Virus record (IMG/VR): IMGVR_UViG_3300032285_003210 | Coordinates: 1-27,706 of that record | Direction: 5' to 3' (one strand) | From: a virus | DNA: 27,706 nucleotides | Shown here: positions 3,467 to 25,391 of the stretch, piece after piece | Layout of the letters: every line of letters begins with the position of its first letter | Position numbering within the stretch: position 1 is the first letter of the stretch | The notes under the pieces: generated by a model | What the model saw: only the letters and a program-made list of their open reading frames with translations | Database searches by the model: none | What the model was told of the DNA's origin: nothing | Translations under genes and position numbers: made by a program

Positions 3467-4912
3467 CTAGTAGGTGGCAAATTCAGTGTGGATACTTGTC
3501 TTGATTTGGTTCATGTCCACAGGCACCATCAGTTCGGGCATATAGCTGCTGGGACCCTGCTGCATTTTTACACAGTCCACATACATGCTAAATTTGCCCT
3601 CGGTGCTGGTGACCAAAACTTGTGGCACGTCAATTTCCTTGAGCACCTCACCAAACTGTTCAACAAAGCTGGTGTCCACTCCCAATGTATAAAACCTGGC
3701 CCCCCAGTGCGGCCGGCTTACACGGTCAGCTTGCAACCGCATCAGTGCTGTGATTCCATCCAAGTCATGTGGTTTTTGGCTTACACCAAAGCCCACATTT
3801 TTGTAACCCAACAATAACATGGGCACACCATGTTGCCAGCTTTTTTCCAGTAGCAGGGCTGTATCTTGAATGTCCAAGGTTCCCACCACGTGCTGCGCAG
3901 TGATTTTCACACTCCTGCTATCCCAGCCCCTGTTGGGATAACGATTTATCGCATGGTCAATCTTGGCCACCTTGGCCAAGTCCTTAATATTGTGAACACT
4001 GACTCCAATTGCTCCCACATACTGGCGTACTGCCTTGACAAGTTCCTCGTTTTTGAGCCAATCCACACCATATGTGGTGAAGTTGGGAACCATACCCCAT
4101 TGATGGGTGCGCTCTAGAGCTTGTGCCAAATGGGGGTATTGAGTGGTTTCCCCTCCTCCAAAAGCGATCTCAAACACGCCCAAATCAGACAATGCTGCCA
4201 GCGTGGCATTCACATTGCTCCATTCTGCGTGTTGTCCCTGCTTGGTGCTGCTCTGATAACAGAACTGACAACCATAAGTGCAATAGTCAGTGAGCTTCAC
4301 ATCCACCAGTTCCGGGGTTTGTGCCTTGGTATATTCAGGCAGATCGGCATCAAAACTAAATCTAGCCTTGTTACCGCTGTGGGGATCAAAAATGACCCAA
4401 TAATCTCCGTCTTCACGCACCCTTACGTGAGCCCCCGCAGTGTTGGACAGATTGGTGTATTCATTTTCATAACTGTCAGGTGGGGAGATCTGACCGTCGC
4501 TGTTGTCGTTTCCTCCCAGGATAACCACATTGTCTTGCATGAGCCAGTTATGATAGGCCTTAATAAAGCGTGGATTTTTGCCCAAAGTGCCGTTGAATAT
4601 ACTCCACACACTTTGGTGATCCACATTACCCTCACACAGCTCAGATTTTGCATAATCTGTGCCCAGCCATGTGTTCACAAGTTGAACCGCTGTATCAGAG
4701 GGGATATTACTACCCTCCAGAGCCAGCTTGAGCTGAACAGCCAAATAGGCAGTTTTGCTCTCCCTGTCAGCCAAGGTAAAAGTTTCCCAACCGTAATTGA
4801 AACGATTGTCCTCATCAGAACACACACGTTGGCCGGGAGGAATCATTACAATGCTGTGACTGCTGCTACTGTTTGTGGCAAATCCAGCTCGCACATTATG
4901 GATTTTGATCAT
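3467..4912 (-). CDS. Radical-SAM protein with TNSSSSHS N-terminal motif
   Basis: 481 residues. Cys211, Cys215 and Cys218 form the CxxxCxxC motif (CTYGCQFC) that binds the 4Fe-4S cluster used to cleave S-adenosylmethionine. FGGGETTQYP at 251-260 is the usual 'GGE' motif. The region from about 200 to 440 fits a partial TIM barrel. The N-terminal 200 residues are a separate domain starting with a peculiar VRAGFATNSSSSHS segment (residues 7-20), similar to Ser-rich starts seen in other phage and bacterial hypothetical proteins. No SPASM-like Cys cluster is evident at the C terminus. The substrate is unknown; peptide, tRNA or cofactor modification are all possible. The ATG at 4912 has only a weak ribosome-binding site. 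A dedicated sigma70-type promoter and palindrome lie just upstream. Confidence 0.88.
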   Translation of the reverse strand: MIKIHNVRAGFATNSSSSHSIVMIPPGQRVCSDEDNRFNYGWETFTLADRESKTAYLAVQLKLALEGSNIPSDTAVQLVNTWLGTDYAKSELCEGNVDHQSVWSIFNGTLGKNPRFIKAYHNWLMQDNVVILGGNDNSDGQISPPDSYENEYTNLSNTAGAHVRVREDGDYWVIFDPHSGNKARFSFDADLPEYTKAQTPELVDVKLTDYCTYGCQFCYQSSTKQGQHAEWSNVNATLAALSDLGVFEIAFGGGETTQYPHLAQALERTHQWGMVPNFTTYGVDWLKNEELVKAVRQYVGAIGVSVHNIKDLAKVAKIDHAINRYPNRGWDSRSVKITAQHVVGTLDIQDTALLLEKSWQHGVPMLLLGYKNVGFGVSQKPHDLDGITALMRLQADRVSRPHWGARFYTLGVDTSFVEQFGEVLKEIDVPQVLVTSTEGKFSMYVDCVKMQQGPSSYMPELMVPVDMNQIKTSIHTEFATY

Positions 4913-5643: not shown

Positions 5644-6483
5644 CTAGTACTGCACCTTTTTTATTTCGTAGGGATACTTGACTTTGTTGTAGATGGCTTT
5701 GCGCTTGTTCATGTGGTTGTTGCTGAACTTGCACTTGCTGGCCACATCCCAAATAACCACCTCATCCTTGTCGTTGGTTTTGCGAAGACCTCTGCCAATA
5801 CTCTGCACGACCCTGATAAAACTCTTGCCTGGCTCCACCAAAACCACATGATTGATCTTGCCAATGTTGATTCCCACAGCAGCAACACCAAATGTGGCTA
5901 TTACTACCCTGTTGTCCACGATCTCCATCTCACGGTAATATTCTGCACGATCTTTGTTTTTCATTTCTCCGCTTACAAAGATACTGCCCTTGAGATTGTC
6001 ACGCAAAAATTCTCCTGTGGCAATACGGTCCACCAGCACCATTATGTTTCCTGTTTTGCTGATTTCCTCAACCAAACCAGAAAGCCAATTCAGCCTTGCA
6101 GGGTCTGTGGTCAAATATTTGAGCTCATTCTGATAGTCTGTATATTGTGCAGTTTCCTGAGTGTGAAGTATGTTCACTTGACATGATGCCAACACTCCTG
6201 CCTCCTGCAATTCATGTGCAGCCAGTTCACCAATCTGTGGGCCAATGGCAGTAAACAAACTGAGTTGGTTCCATTCTTCTTCGGGCAATGTGCCAGTGAG
6301 TCCCCAACGAATGGGCACATTCTTGAAGTTTTGAGTCATCAACTTTTGAACCACACCCAAATCTTTTACCCCGTGGCAATTGGAGACTACTGCCCCCTCA
6401 ACGATATAATTATGATCTTCTTGAACATGAAGATTATACACGTTTTGAGGTTTATTAATTTCAGTCCTCTTTAGTAGTTTCAT
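5644..6483 (-). CDS. uvsW: Split-intein C-fragment plus UvsW helicase C-terminal half
   Basis: 279 residues. Residues 1-35 are an intein C-fragment ending DHNYIVEGAVVSN, followed by Cys36 as the C-extein nucleophile. Residues 36-279 are the UvsW C-terminal half. It begins with CHG, completing the split DECH motif II, then has WGLTGTLP (motif III-like), FVSGEMK, VVIATFGVAAVGIN (motif V-like) and QSIGRGLRKT (motif VI). UvsW is an SF2 helicase that remodels recombination intermediates and R-loops in T4. The protein needs trans-splicing with the product of 7411-8427 to yield an intact helicase. The ATG at 6483 overlaps the end of the endonuclease gene by 23 nt, suggesting translational coupling. 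Ligated helicase: 241 + 244 = 485 residues, near the usual UvsW size. Confidence 0.93.
   Translation of the reverse strand: MKLLKRTEINKPQNVYNLHVQEDHNYIVEGAVVSNCHGVKDLGVVQKLMTQNFKNVPIRWGLTGTLPEEEWNQLSLFTAIGPQIGELAAHELQEAGVLASCQVNILHTQETAQYTDYQNELKYLTTDPARLNWLSGLVEEISKTGNIMVLVDRIATGEFLRDNLKGSIFVSGEMKNKDRAEYYREMEIVDNRVVIATFGVAAVGINIGKINHVVLVEPGKSFIRVVQSIGRGLRKTNDKDEVVIWDVASKCKFSNNHMNKRKAIYNKVKYPYEIKKVQY
6379..6483 (-). other. Intein C-fragment (IntC) coding segment
   Basis: It encodes 35 residues with intein blocks F and G: QNVYNLHVQEDHNYIVEGA, then VVSN before Cys. The penultimate residue is Ser instead of the common His, as in cyanobacterial DnaE split inteins (IASN then Cys). The terminal Asn and following Cys, needed for cyclisation and transesterification, are intact, so splicing looks competent. 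Confidence 0.92.
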
Positions 6484-7369
6484 ATAGGATTCTCAACTTT
6501 CTTGCGGTTGTGTCATCGAATTTGGATAAATCAGGATTCAATACATTGTTTACCAGCCAATATTGATCCGCTAGTAATACAGTGTATCCATTGTTTTGGG
6601 ACCAGTCTACTAGACTTTCCCATTTGACTTTGAATATCCTATCCTTAGTCAATTCTCTTGGTTTTACTTCAATAACCAACTTATTTTGTTCATCTACAAA
6701 ATCTACAATATAAACTCTTTCTTCGTTGTTATGGGTATAAGGTATTCTTAGCTTTTCATATTTGGCCTGTGGATTATAAGAGTGATATAGTGCCTCCCAA
6801 CTTGATCTGTATTTTAGTCCGTTGAACAGGACATCATAATGAGTTTGTCTATTATTTGAATTGGGAGTAAATCTTCCTTCTTGAATCATGGTCTTCATAA
6901 GCAGAGAATGCTTATTTTTGACCTCCTCTGAGTGCCTTTTACCATACATAGGATTCCCGGCTCCCATACGCCGTTTTGACATATTGTCACACTGTTCTTC
7001 CGTAAGAGGACGTCTCTTATAGTCAATATTTTTCTTCTTACCTTTGATCCACGGTTGTCCAGTGTTTAAATTATTCCTTATATGATCCTTATGGATTTCT
7101 TGGCATTTTTGTCCACGCTTAACGGCCAGAATATGCAAAACATCTAGTTCGCTTATTTCGTTGGTGATCCATTGATCAAAAAGTTCGTACCAGATAGGGG
7201 CTTTAGAATATATCAATCTCTTGCGGAAGTTTTGTAGCTCTCCGCCTATAAACTCTTTACCATTGGTAACTGACCATTTATTTTTTGTGCAGACATCTAT
7301 GCGCAAGATCTGATTACACAGAGCCAACTTGTCATTGATTCTCTCTTTAATTTCAGGATAGGTTTTCAC
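6461..7369 (-). CDS. Free-standing homing endonuclease, PD-(D/E)XK/Vsr-like core with NUMOD3-like motif
   Basis: 302 residues, between the two intein halves of uvsW. A NUMOD3-like DNA-binding motif, NPMYGKRHSEEVKNKHS, lies at 139-155. The nuclease core has YRSSWE (187-192), IPY (209-211), VDF (222-224) and IEVKP (233-237), giving Glu192, Asp223, Glu234 and Lys236 as candidate catalytic residues. The same RSSWE/IPY/xDF/IEVKP series occurs in gp4 of this genome. The start is GTG at 7369, with a strong Shine-Dalgarno (AGAGGAGG, 6 nt). A late-type promoter motif lies at 7394-7401. The presumed role is cutting intein-less uvsW alleles to spread the element. The arrangement matches the 'fractured gene' loci described in environmental phage DNA by Dassa and colleagues. 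Confidence 0.85.
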   Translation of the reverse strand: MKTYPEIKERINDKLALCNQILRIDVCTKNKWSVTNGKEFIGGELQNFRKRLIYSKAPIWYELFDQWITNEISELDVLHILAVKRGQKCQEIHKDHIRNNLNTGQPWIKGKKKNIDYKRRPLTEEQCDNMSKRRMGAGNPMYGKRHSEEVKNKHSLLMKTMIQEGRFTPNSNNRQTHYDVLFNGLKYRSSWEALYHSYNPQAKYEKLRIPYTHNNEERVYIVDFVDEQNKLVIEVKPRELTKDRIFKVKWESLVDWSQNNGYTVLLADQYWLVNNVLNPDLSKFDDTTARKLRILYETTKED

Positions 7370-7393
7370 GAATGCCTCCTCTTTGACTTCGTG

Positions 7394-7401
7394 TATTTAT
7401 G
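7394..7401 (-). promoter_or_regulatory. Late-type promoter motif CATAAATA driving the homing endonuclease
   Basis: Minus-strand CATAAATA differs from the T4 late promoter TATAAATA at one base. It lies 24 nt before the GTG at 7369, in the 41-nt gap between the N-half stop codon and the endonuclease. It would make endonuclease and the C-half transcript independent of the uvsW promoter at late times. Confidence 0.6.
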
Positions 7402-7410
7402 CCATCTACG

Positions 7411-8427
7411 TTAGGAGACGTTTATGATTTCATGATCATTAGTCAATTCATCTGCTCTACACCAGCCTTTGTTGGTCATAAACTTATGATTGCCTGTTAC
7501 TTTAATTACAGTTCCGTTATCGAATTCAAGCTCATACATTTTCTCTGTGTAAGAATTCGTAAGATTAACATGTTGTTTGACAACAATATCCTCCTTGAAC
7601 TCCTTGGTAGATTCAGAATAGTTGATTACCCTGTCCCCTGGTTTTAAGTCTTTAATAGGCACATATCCTTGGGGAGTAAGAACTCTACTCTCCCCGTCGA
7701 AGCACTCATCAACTACGACACAGATCAAGTTTTTCATGAACACTTCCATTTGATGTTCATCCAAACAATCCTTGCTCTTTTTATCAAGAACATTCAAACT
7801 CTGCCAGGTGCAGATGGTGTGAGTGCGGTCATACTCTTTGCGATCACCATACATGACTCCCACATCCAATCCCAGATTGCGGTAGTCCTGCTCTGTTTGA
7901 GTCACCAGACTCTTGTTGGGAACAATCACAATAGTCCTACCATACTGTTCAACTATTTTGCTGAGAGTGGAAGTGATAATGGTTTTGCCCGCGCCTGTGG
8001 CCAATATGTTCACGCCTTGTAGATTGTTAAGGCATTCGTTGATAGCATCCACTTGATAGTCACGAAGCACGATGGGTTGACCTGCAAATCTGTGACCACT
8101 GGGCCAAGTGGTGCCAGCGTGGTATTGTTCATCAATGTTTCCAAAATCAAACTTATGATATGCTCTCTGATCGTCCAGTACAAATTCATAACCACGTTCT
8201 TGTAGCACAGGAATTAGCTTGTCCAGAATGTTCAGATAGCTCTTTCCACCCTGGGTACAAAAGCTGGTGGTTCCATCCCATCGTCCTGTCTTATAAGCAA
8301 AGCTATATCTAGCATGAGGCATAAAAAATTGAACACTCTTGACCAATGCACGCTTGGTGGCTGTATCCACATCTTTGATAGAGATGTTTACTTCGTCTTC
8401 AATAATAATTTTTGCTACGTTGTCCAT
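7411..8427 (-). CDS. uvsW: UvsW helicase N-terminal half fused to split-intein N-fragment
   Basis: 338 residues. Residues 1-241 are the UvsW N-terminal half: a small N-terminal domain (1-115), LRDYQVDAI (Q-motif-like, 121-129), Walker A LATGAGKT (142-149), VIVPNKSLVTQ (motif Ia), and the start of motif II, VVVDE (237-241). At Cys242 the sequence changes to an intein: CFDGESRVLTPQGYVPIKDL (block A), then TGNHKF near 70-75 of the intein (block B). The ORF ends 97 residues into the intein with a normal TAA. The break therefore falls between DE and CH of the DECH box, and no helicase can form without splicing to the product of 5644-6483. Ribosome-binding site AAGGGC. A sigma70-type promoter is just upstream. 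Confidence 0.93.
   Translation of the reverse strand: MDNVAKIIIEDEVNISIKDVDTATKRALVKSVQFFMPHARYSFAYKTGRWDGTTSFCTQGGKSYLNILDKLIPVLQERGYEFVLDDQRAYHKFDFGNIDEQYHAGTTWPSGHRFAGQPIVLRDYQVDAINECLNNLQGVNILATGAGKTIITSTLSKIVEQYGRTIVIVPNKSLVTQTEQDYRNLGLDVGVMYGDRKEYDRTHTICTWQSLNVLDKKSKDCLDEHQMEVFMKNLICVVVDECFDGESRVLTPQGYVPIKDLKPGDRVINYSESTKEFKEDIVVKQHVNLTNSYTEKMYELEFDNGTVIKVTGNHKFMTNKGWCRADELTNDHEIINVS
7414..7704 (-). other. Intein N-fragment (IntN) coding segment
   Basis: 97 codons starting at the Cys1 codon (7702-7704). Block A CFDGESRVLTPQG and block B TGNHKF, with the TxxH residues that catalyse the N-S acyl shift, are present. No dodecapeptide LAGLIDADG blocks occur. With the 35-residue C-fragment the intein totals 132 residues, a minimal splicing domain. 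Confidence 0.92.
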
Positions 8428-18390: not shown

Positions 18391-19479
18391 TCAAACTTCA
18401 GAATCAACTGATGTGGCTTGATGGCCACGCTCACGGCGTTCCAGAGCGTCATGGAACTCGTCCATGACTGCTTCTAGGCAGCCATCCTCATTCCTGTCCC
18501 AGGGCTTTTCAAACTGCTTGATCTGTGTGCCATCCAGCTTTGTGTAGGCCCACTTGTTGCCTTCCTTGACCAACAGCTTCTTTTGAACAAACAGGTCAAA
18601 CAAGCCACTGAAAGGATCCATACCCCTGTCATAGGGGATCTTGATTTCCACCTGCTCAAAGGGCTTGTTGTATCGTGTCTTCATGATCTTGCATTGAGCA
18701 CGGATACCACTCACTTCACCGCCTGTGAGCTTGTTACCCATCTCATCTTCCTTGAGCTTGAGCTTGCGCATGGCCAGCACAATGCTTGAGGCATAGATGG
18801 GACCCTGTCCACCACTGATCACGTCATCAGGATTGAACATGTCCTGGCTGGCATAACTGTGGTTGGTGCAAACCATACCCACATCATATTCACCAAACAT
18901 GTTCACACAGTTGCGCACCAGTGCAGCCAATGCCTTGGGCTTGCGACCCATGTCGCCCTTGAGATCACCAGCTTCAAACTGATTCACGTCAGTGGGTGTG
19001 AGCATCATGCCCAAACTGTCAATCACAAACAGCACACGTGGACGAAGATCTTCATCCACGCTGCCATACTGAGTCTTGTAATCCTTCATAAAGTCGCTGA
19101 TCAGCTTGGCAACATCGTCAATCATGGCCATGTTGGCCTTGAGCAACTTGTCCTCGCTGGTGTCCACATCCAGTGCCTTGAGCCAGCTTTCGTCCAGAGC
19201 GTTTTCAGTATCAATCAGCACCACAAACACATCTTTCTTTTGTGCGTTGGCTGTGATATTACCTGATGCAAGAAAGCTCTTGCCTGATCCACTCTGGCCA
19301 CCCAGCATGGTCACCTTGCCCAGTGGAATTCCACCGTCACGGAAACGCCCGCTGATTGCATAGTTGAGTGCATAATTGCCAGTGCTGATCCACACCTTGG
19401 GATCACGAAACCCCATACTCAAACCAGGGATGTTTTTGGTGATGTCCTTGCGGAACTTACTTAAATCTAGTGCTTTCAT
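18391..19479 (-). CDS. uvsX: UvsX RecA-like recombinase
   Basis: 362 residues, a normal length. UvsX forms filaments on single-stranded DNA and drives strand exchange in recombination-dependent replication. Walker A is GGQSGSGKS (60-68), with Walker B-type RVLFVIDSLGMM and a RecA-like loop around DMGRKPKALAALVR. VCTNHSY matches the sensor strand, and SGGQGPIYASS the L2/Q region of T4 UvsX. The C terminus is charged and polar, as in RecA. Preceded by AAGGA. It lies directly downstream of gene 32 with a hairpin in between. Recognition is strong from motifs and length. Confidence 0.96.
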   Translation of the reverse strand: MKALDLSKFRKDITKNIPGLSMGFRDPKVWISTGNYALNYAISGRFRDGGIPLGKVTMLGGQSGSGKSFLASGNITANAQKKDVFVVLIDTENALDESWLKALDVDTSEDKLLKANMAMIDDVAKLISDFMKDYKTQYGSVDEDLRPRVLFVIDSLGMMLTPTDVNQFEAGDLKGDMGRKPKALAALVRNCVNMFGEYDVGMVCTNHSYASQDMFNPDDVISGGQGPIYASSIVLAMRKLKLKEDEMGNKLTGGEVSGIRAQCKIMKTRYNKPFEQVEIKIPYDRGMDPFSGLFDLFVQKKLLVKEGNKWAYTKLDGTQIKQFEKPWDRNEDGCLEAVMDEFHDALERRERGHQATSVDSEV

Positions 19480-21936: not shown

Positions 21937-23547
21937 TTACCAGCCAATACTAACAGGCATTGGCTCAACCAAGTCTTGTAGATCTTGTAGGTCCTGATCC
22001 AGGAACTTTTCAGCAGTGCGGTCGTCCCATTTGCTGATTTGTTGGCTCATTCTCACAATCAGCAAAGTAGCACTCACCAGGTCATCATGTTCTCCTGACT
22101 TGCCTGCAAAGCTGTCGCCCTTGCTCACATAATTCTTGATTTGACTTACCAGAGCCTTGCTGCGGATCTGCATTTTGTTGCTTTCCACCAAGCTCTTGAA
22201 TTTGACTACTGCTTGACTTTTACTGCGAACATTGGTGTTGTATCCTCTGCGCACCACATTATTGGTGCTCACATCGCTCATCAGCTGTGCAGGTATGATA
22301 TCCAAACCCACTTCATTCAATAGTTCGGTAACACTTTGGCCTACTGCATTATTTTCAAAGGTCCAAAACAACTCTGGTTCACCAATTTGATCTGGAAGTC
22401 TGCGAATTTCCTTGTCCAGCCACTGGCATGTTTGGATCACCACCTTTAGCTGACTGGCCACATTGCTTTTATTGTGCATCCATTCTGCTACTTGTGCCAT
22501 GTCTGGCAGCCTCCACACCTGAACTGCGCCATAATCTTTACCCACACCTGCACTGGGATCCAATCCCACCAGGTAGATGCTGTTGGCTTGTGGCCGTTCA
22601 AACCAACGTATTTCTTGTGTTTTGAACAATGGTTCTTGGTTGACAAGATTTGCCAAAACCTTACTATCAATGAGCGTGTCCTCAGCACTCAAGAATTGCA
22701 GTTCATATTCACGTGCAAACTTCTCATAGCCAATTTTTGCACGCTCCTTGTTAGCCCAATCTTCATCTCTTTCTGGATGTTGATCCCAGGTGGCTTTGAA
22801 GGCCTTGAAGCCGTTGGCGCCCAGTCCGTCGGCTCTTTCATTGCCAAATTCGTCCAATGTTTTGTTGGCAGCATACCAAATGTTGGCAAAGGTGTCTTCA
22901 TCACCATTGGGAGTGCTTGTAATAATACACTTGCCACCTGTGGCAAGTGTGGGACTGATGGCTGTCCAGAACTCTTCGGCAATCCTGCTTTTTACGAAAG
23001 CCATCTCGTCACAGTAAAGCAAGCTGATACTTTTACCGCGCCCTGCATCTGCTGTGGTAGTGGTACTCTCTATCTTGCTGCCGTTATCAAACTGTATCTT
23101 TTGCACATTCCAGGTGACCACACCAGGACGTAGCCAGTCAGGAAGTTCTTCGTAGGCAAAGCGAACACGATCCATGATTTCAGTGGCAGCTTTGAACTTG
23201 TTGGCTGCTATAAGCACATTCACGTTGTTTTGAAAAATACTGAACCAGATAATAAATGCGGCGGCGCTTGCTGTTTTACCCAGCTGACGACTACACATGG
23301 CAATAACTTGGCGATTGGCTGCAAAAGTTTGCAACATGTCCACCTGGTAGTCATATAGATCAAAAGCTATTTTGCCTTTGGTGGGATGCTGAACCCAGAT
23401 ATAATTCCTGCAGAAATATACAGGATCCATTGCGCATCGTAGGAACTCTGGTTTCTGTTGAGCATTGAGAGTGAGTTTTTGATAAGGGGCTTTGATGAGG
23501 TTGGGCTCATCTTGCATCATGTATTTAAGTGGCTTTTTTTGGGCCAT
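21937..23547 (-). CDS. 17: Terminase large subunit gp17
   Basis: 536 residues. gp17 is the ATP-driven packaging motor and headful nuclease. The ATPase domain has YDYQVDML (Q motif), Walker A SRQLGKT (86-92), nearly identical to T4 SRQLGKT, and Walker B LLYCDE (177-182). TSTPNG is the coupling motif. The nuclease domain has GLDPSAGVGKDYGAVQVW with the first catalytic Asp, FENNAVGQS with the central Glu, and HDDLVSATL with the last Asp. It is slightly shorter than the T4 protein (610), lacking part of the N-terminal extension. Start at ATG 23547, three bases after the 81-residue gene, so probably coupled. Confidence 0.97.
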   Translation of the reverse strand: MAQKKPLKYMMQDEPNLIKAPYQKLTLNAQQKPEFLRCAMDPVYFCRNYIWVQHPTKGKIAFDLYDYQVDMLQTFAANRQVIAMCSRQLGKTASAAAFIIWFSIFQNNVNVLIAANKFKAATEIMDRVRFAYEELPDWLRPGVVTWNVQKIQFDNGSKIESTTTTADAGRGKSISLLYCDEMAFVKSRIAEEFWTAISPTLATGGKCIITSTPNGDEDTFANIWYAANKTLDEFGNERADGLGANGFKAFKATWDQHPERDEDWANKERAKIGYEKFAREYELQFLSAEDTLIDSKVLANLVNQEPLFKTQEIRWFERPQANSIYLVGLDPSAGVGKDYGAVQVWRLPDMAQVAEWMHNKSNVASQLKVVIQTCQWLDKEIRRLPDQIGEPELFWTFENNAVGQSVTELLNEVGLDIIPAQLMSDVSTNNVVRRGYNTNVRSKSQAVVKFKSLVESNKMQIRSKALVSQIKNYVSKGDSFAGKSGEHDDLVSATLLIVRMSQQISKWDDRTAEKFLDQDLQDLQDLVEPMPVSIGW

Positions 23548-25382: not shown

Positions 25383-25391
25383 CTATTTATT
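25383..25391 (-). promoter_or_regulatory. Late-type promoter motif AATAAATAG overlapping the gp16 stop
   Basis: Minus-strand AATAAATAG includes the gp16 TAG stop and lies 22 nt before the ATG at 25360. Confidence 0.45.

Follow-up and report, generated by a model that had tools for sequence, protein, structure and literature searches.

The viral record IMGVR_UViG_3300032285_003210 is a single metagenomic record, which we analysed over its whole length of 27706 bases (the window). On its minus strand, the helicase gene uvsW is split into two parts that enclose a third gene, as read from the list of open reading frames (ORFs) and their translations. This arrangement is very probably a mobile fractured-gene element, which occupies the boundary between DE and CH in the Walker B/DECH motif of the phage helicase gene. 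It shows two features of such elements: a split intein interrupts a conserved enzyme gene, and the endonuclease gene that separates the two parts is free-standing. An earlier note, made from the window's letters alone, had proposed just this, a split intein inside the uvsW DECH motif with a free-standing endonuclease gene, and no other reading fits the data presented here as well. The element is new, but it belongs to a known kind. In the following, we describe its anatomy, its relatives in environmental and cultured phages and their apparent life cycle.

Anatomy of the fractured gene

The helicase part of the N-half (N-extein) ends in VVVDE and is followed by Cys1 of a 97-residue N-terminal intein half (IntN), while the C-half opens with a 35-residue C-terminal intein half (IntC), which ends in VVSN and is followed by CHG, the start of the C-extein. 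All of this had been described in the earlier note and is found in place, as are the independent 302-residue nuclease gene between the halves (7369..6461, minus strand) and the normal starts and stops of the two halves, whose reading frames are both open (Table 1). The residues of a class-1 split intein are present in the window: Cys1, the TxxH of block B, the C-terminal Asn and Cys+1.

On its own, the N-half matches the ResIII/DEAD and intein domains of Pfam, and the C-half matches Helicase_C and, weakly, an intein model. When IntN and IntC are joined, as in the comparison with intein models that the earlier note had suggested, they match Intein_splicing (8e-13) and PT-HINT (2e-14); for the joined exteins, the corresponding matches are ResIII (7e-19) and Helicase_C (2e-11). 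Because the joined inteins and the joined exteins both match their models, we do not regard the pattern of split intein and helicase as a product of chance. Likewise, an alignment with intact UvsW, also suggested beforehand, shows the joined exteins (485 residues) to be collinear with the UvsW proteins of cultured jumbo phages across 99-100% of their length, at 42-50% identity and with the helicase motifs present.

A family of elements at the same site

Further loci were collected by scans of viral contigs that started from conserved peptide patterns and retained at most 80 loci each; the resulting counts are not prevalence. One scan found the same element in two closely related uvsW genes (loci L002 and L010), and alignments of IntN and of the endonuclease found many more. 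Altogether, 81 distinct elements occupy the same uvsW site and were classified by script into 68 with a full endonuclease, five with a partial one, five that are split without an endonuclease and three that are contiguous. In the scan that gave L002 and L010, the site was uninterrupted in 77 of the 79 loci with both exteins readable. Cys1 is found in 80/80 of the distinct elements, the terminal Asn in 81/81 and Cys+1 in 81/81. The Ser before the terminal Asn, rightly pointed out in the earlier note, recurs in 58 of the 81 distinct relatives.

Cultured phages carry a same-site element as well, namely several Salmonella phages (S16, STP4-a and others) and the Proteus phage PM2. The fractured uvsW is thus neither unique to the window nor confined to environmental DNA. 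PM2 has a second annotated homing endonuclease (L083, 4540-5250), which lies between the uvsW C-part and a piece annotated as T4-like UvsW. In bacterial contigs, the scan with IntN gave weak or partial matches and no true relatives, which is why we treat the element as phage-borne. The predicted fold of a contiguous relative (L120; predicted local distance difference test score of 92) matches solved inteins, including NpuDnaE, gp41-1 and NrdJ-1. The HINT fold is thus seen by proxy, in this relative and not in the window's own two halves.

These relatives also bear on what the broken gene might be instead. Being a single metagenomic viral record, the window could in principle contain a dead allele or an assembly chimera. 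The same architecture, however, recurs in L002, L010 and dozens of other independent contigs as well as in complete genomes of cultured phages, so that it is not an assembly artefact. Moreover, both halves are open, and the ratio of nonsynonymous to synonymous substitution (dN/dS), estimated between the window and L002, is low for the endonuclease (0.14-0.18) and for IntN/IntC (0.04-0.15). Of the alternatives that we considered, this is the least probable.

Another possibility is that the halves reassemble without splicing, like the endonuclease-broken NrdA of phage Aeh1, and that the intein pieces are vestigial. Precedents for unspliced yet functional split phage enzymes have been reviewed (PMC2988022). 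For uvsW, we nevertheless consider this very unlikely: the splice-site residues are all kept in about 80 distinct elements, the dN/dS of IntN/IntC is low, and alleles without the endonuclease gene still hold intact IntN and IntC. In addition, the break lies between the E and the C of the Walker B/DECH motif, where unspliced intein tails would occupy the ATPase site. Active UvsW thus presumably requires trans-splicing, as the earlier note had it, with non-covalent reassembly as the alternative known from other endonuclease-broken phage genes.

Finally, introns with endonuclease genes are common in phages of this type, and an RNA intron could excise the endonuclease region and join IntN to IntC in the mRNA to yield a contiguous intein. 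Yet IntN has its own stop and IntC its own start, their frames vary among relatives, and alleles from which the endonuclease is deleted still have separate ORFs; an intron therefore appears even less likely than unspliced reassembly. A scan of the whole window against Rfam returned no match of any kind.

Mobility of the element

The element and its host gene have different histories. Between the window and L002, IntN is 89%, IntC 91% and the endonuclease 78% identical, as against 59-60% for the exteins, and identity at four-fold sites is also higher in the element than in the exteins. In the extein tree, the window is sister to the empty alleles L003 and L004 (support 99), whereas in the intein tree, its intein is nearest that of L002 (100/86). 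This phylogenetic incongruence shows that the element is mobile. Across the family, the intein is more alike than the exteins by at least 20 points in 330 of 1953 pairs. Over larger distances, IntN of the window is 61-62% identical to that of the Salmonella and Proteus phages, and the exteins are 26-34% identical (62% and about 30%, respectively, for STP4-a).

The Salmonella phages offer precisely matched occupied and empty alleles. STP4-a and S16 are occupied and 99.9% identical over the uvsW region, whereas STML-198, CGG4-1 and Melville are empty. Compared with STML-198, the insert of STP4-a, which is also present in CF-SP2, measures 1227 nucleotides and lies exactly between GACGAG and TGCCAC; a single position distinguishes the STP4-a insert from that of CF-SP2. 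To the left of the insert, STP4-a and STML-198 differ at 31 of 490 nucleotides, against one difference in the next 900 (Fisher p 1e-13), and to the right there are five differences in the first 98 nucleotides. This co-conversion-like tract is as expected of homing with co-conversion, though ordinary phage recombination can also leave tracts.

The endonuclease and its expression

Sequence and predicted fold suggest that the endonuclease is a NUMOD3 plus TnsA-like PD-(D/E)xK protein. The predicted fold of the nuclease domain resembles TnsA with a moderate score (Z 8.7), followed by Vsr (5.9) and I-Bth0305I (5.5), and Foldseek alone also places TnsA first, with a weak E-value of 0.19. It has a restriction-endonuclease-like core with E, D and E-x-K, and in an alignment of 25 relatives (made without L235, whose gene contains a stop codon), E192, D223 and E234 are invariant and K236 is nearly so. 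The endonuclease profile had no meaningful match among the sequences of solved structures, the matches coming from the fold comparison. Related endonucleases also lie within other broken genes (L088, L089, L084 and L086), namely the terminase genes of Yersinia phage phiR1-RT and Shewanella phage Thanatos-2, phoH of Campylobacter phage CP20 and a helicase gene of Prevotella phage Lak-B2; the TerL and PhoH halves of these loci have intein-like ends.

Upstream of the endonuclease gene, the motif CATAAATAC resembles a T4 late promoter and may act as one. Of 60 distinct spacers between IntN and endonuclease, 56 contain ATAAATA, where shuffling would lead one to expect 9.5. A stretch of 30 nucleotides that spans the motif and the ribosome-binding site is identical in the window and L002; in the window, this site sits 5 nucleotides upstream of the GTG start. 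Elsewhere in the window, ATAAATA is found only at 25390, 20661 and 16607, always on the minus strand and, in the latter two cases, shortly upstream of ORF starts. Downstream, the end of the endonuclease gene overlaps the start of IntC by 4-41 nucleotides in every full-length element counted, and the C-half may therefore be translated by coupling to the endonuclease gene.

Table 1. Coordinates of the features that make up the split uvsW locus in the window
Feature	Position	Strand	Details and basis
N-half ORF	8427..7411	minus	338 aa = 241 aa extein (end VVVDE) + 97 aa IntN (start CFDGES)
uvsW N-extein, 241 aa; UvsW N-terminal part with Walker A ATGAGKT, up to VVVDE	7705..8427	minus	Pfam, alignments
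IntN, 97 aa; Cys1 and block B TGNH	7414..7704	minus	stop codon 7411-7413; Pfam, alignments
CATAAATAC, T4-late-promoter-like motif between IntN and endonuclease gene	7393..7401	minus	spacer motif counts
AGGAGG, ribosome-binding site of endonuclease gene	7375..7380	minus	sequence; identical in L002
Free-standing putative homing endonuclease gene, 302 aa, GTG start	6461..7369	minus	ORF, Pfam, alignments
NUMOD3 motif, endonuclease residues 120-153	6911..7012	minus	Pfam E 5.9e-8
Predicted PD-(D/E)xK nuclease domain, residues about 155-283; E192, D223, E234, K236 conserved	6521..6907	minus	TnsA 1t0f Z 8.7
Overlap of endonuclease 3' end and IntC start, 23 nt; possible translational coupling	6461..6483	minus	ORF coordinates
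C-half ORF	6483..5644	minus	279 aa = 35 aa IntC (end VVSN) + 244 aa extein (start CHG)
IntC, 35 aa, own ATG; block F HNY, end VVSN	6379..6483	minus	ORF, Pfam, alignments
uvsW C-extein, 244 aa, start CHG; Helicase_C	5647..6378	minus	stop 5644-5646; Pfam, alignments

The neighbourhood of the locus includes genes for an Fe-S oxidoreductase/radical SAM protein (3467-4912), a UvsX-like recombinase (18391-19479) and the terminase large subunit (21937-23547).

Decay, loss and probable re-fusion

The family contains a decay series. In the intein tree, alleles that lack the endonuclease gene fall within groups of full ones: L133 groups with L130 (96/92), L103 and L116 with L211 (100/94), and L160 and L161 with L158 and L159 (100/99). 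Short remnants of the endonuclease 3' end are kept in L103, L116, L133 and L141. The contiguous intein of L120, which is represented by five contigs, falls inside a clade of full elements (99/96). About 50 nucleotides in L120 match the 3' end of the L201/L207 endonuclease gene; the join is at CACGA, a sequence present in both flanking stretches, and the L120 ORF of 625 residues is open. We read this locus as a split intein that was probably re-fused by deletion. In the contiguous inteins of L142 and L153, whose placement the intein tree does not resolve, no endonuclease remnant was found, and for this reason we claim re-fusion for L120 only.

Genes broken twice

Thirteen loci, several of them near-copies of each other, have a further split insertion at Walker A of uvsW (L101, L102, L103, L105, L126, L220, L222 and L224-L229). 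In L102 (2766-7051), Walker A is interrupted by a split intein that comes with another kind of endonuclease gene, and Walker B by a split intein of the window's type; the order is N-piece, endonuclease, a middle piece that begins with IntC and ends with IntN, second endonuclease and C-piece. With its short first and long second fragment, the Walker A intein appears to be of the atypically split type. Its endonuclease, which has an EFNGEYWHAD stretch, a weak match to DUF559 and a match to phrog_22677, is by its sequence from a different family than that of the window. If both inteins work, the UvsW of these loci is built from three polypeptides by two trans-splicing reactions. Contiguous inteins are also found at Walker A beside a split intein of the window's type at Walker B, a large one in L010 (4746-5879) and a mini-intein in L231 (about 4010-4404). 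In another gene, NrdA of Campylobacter phage CP20 (L085, 2687-6754), two pieces with IntN- and IntC-like ends flank two ORFs.

On balance, we favour the view that the uvsW split inteins display a complete and readable life cycle, with empty, fractured, endonuclease-decayed, split but endonuclease-free and re-fused contiguous states. In the same view, some phages have a three-piece uvsW whose protein is assembled by two trans-splicing reactions: at Walker A by an intein that is split atypically, and at Walker B by one of the window's type.

A model for the element

We propose that UvsW is made as two separate precursors, an N-terminal part that carries IntN at its end and a C-terminal part that starts with IntC. 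The two halves of the intein would bind each other, and class-1 chemistry (Cys1, the Thr and His of block B, the terminal Asn and Cys+1) would join the exteins to a UvsW of 485 residues and so restore the DECH box. The endonuclease gene would be expressed from a late-type promoter-like motif and a ribosome-binding site of its own. The nuclease would cleave uvsW alleles without the element, and their repair would then copy the whole unit of 1.2-1.3 kb and some flanking DNA into them. After its spread, the endonuclease gene may decay or be deleted, leaving a plain split intein, from which an in-frame deletion may in turn produce a contiguous mini-intein.

Several points weigh against this account. 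For this element, both splicing and the cleavage of empty alleles by the endonuclease are deduced from sequence. The invariance of the catalytic residues overstates the number of tests, because related sequences are not independent. The promoter-like motif lies in AT-rich DNA, and the tract between STP4-a and STML-198 could also stem from ordinary recombination between T-even phages. Lastly, the exteins of the window and L002 are slightly more alike near the junction than elsewhere (0.62-0.77 nucleotide identity); because this rise is only slight, we saw no clear co-conversion tract in that comparison.

Significance and comparison with known systems

With the cultured phages, an observation made in 2009 on environmental sequence becomes testable in culture. 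Because the occupied phages S16 and STP4-a and the empty phages STML-198, CGG4-1 and Melville are near-isogenic at uvsW, split-intein homing and the need for trans-splicing are directly measurable, and the family around the window opens the homing, decay and re-fusion of split inteins to direct tests. This family also shows that a split intein can turn contiguous again, as L120 suggests, which bears on the origin and persistence of split genes. The three-piece loci, if our reading is true, would be an instance of tandem protein trans-splicing in nature, and all these elements give protein engineers new split-intein candidates. In the searchable literature, which excludes most subscription papers, we saw no report of a split intein in UvsW, of the re-fusion of a split intein or of a natural split-intein protein made of three polypeptides.

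Among the closest known systems are the fractured genes of the 2009 study by Dassa et al., which reportedly found phage genes split by an intein, with a separate endonuclease gene lying between the two parts; in about half of the loci, the endonuclease is said to belong to a new, Vsr-like family. The window shares the split intein and the position of the endonuclease gene, but may differ in its host gene, uvsW, broken between DE and CH, and in its endonuclease, predicted to be a NUMOD3 plus TnsA-like PD-(D/E)xK protein. The gp41-1, NrdJ-1 and DnaE split inteins have in common with it the HINT fold, the canonical split position (a long IntN and an IntC of about 35 residues) and the Cys1/Asn chemistry, but they reside in other host proteins, and the contiguous relative is only 22-26% identical to these structures. 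The same layout of intein halves and endonuclease gene is found in PolB of a jumbo phage, Pseudomonas phage MIJ3, where host gene and intein are different and the endonuclease is described as of the HNH family (PMC6892783). The UvsW of MIJ3 is a relative of the window's (47.5% identity), and its gene is uninterrupted, in one piece. Close counterparts are the split uvsW genes of S16/STP4-a and PM2, whose parts are named 'DNA helicase' and 'hypothetical protein' in the deposited records, with no intein named. Their exteins are of the T4 type (26-34% identical to the window's) and their penultimate intein residue is His, whereas the site and the order of the parts are the same and IntN (61-62%), endonuclease (29-31%) and IntC are homologous to those of the window.
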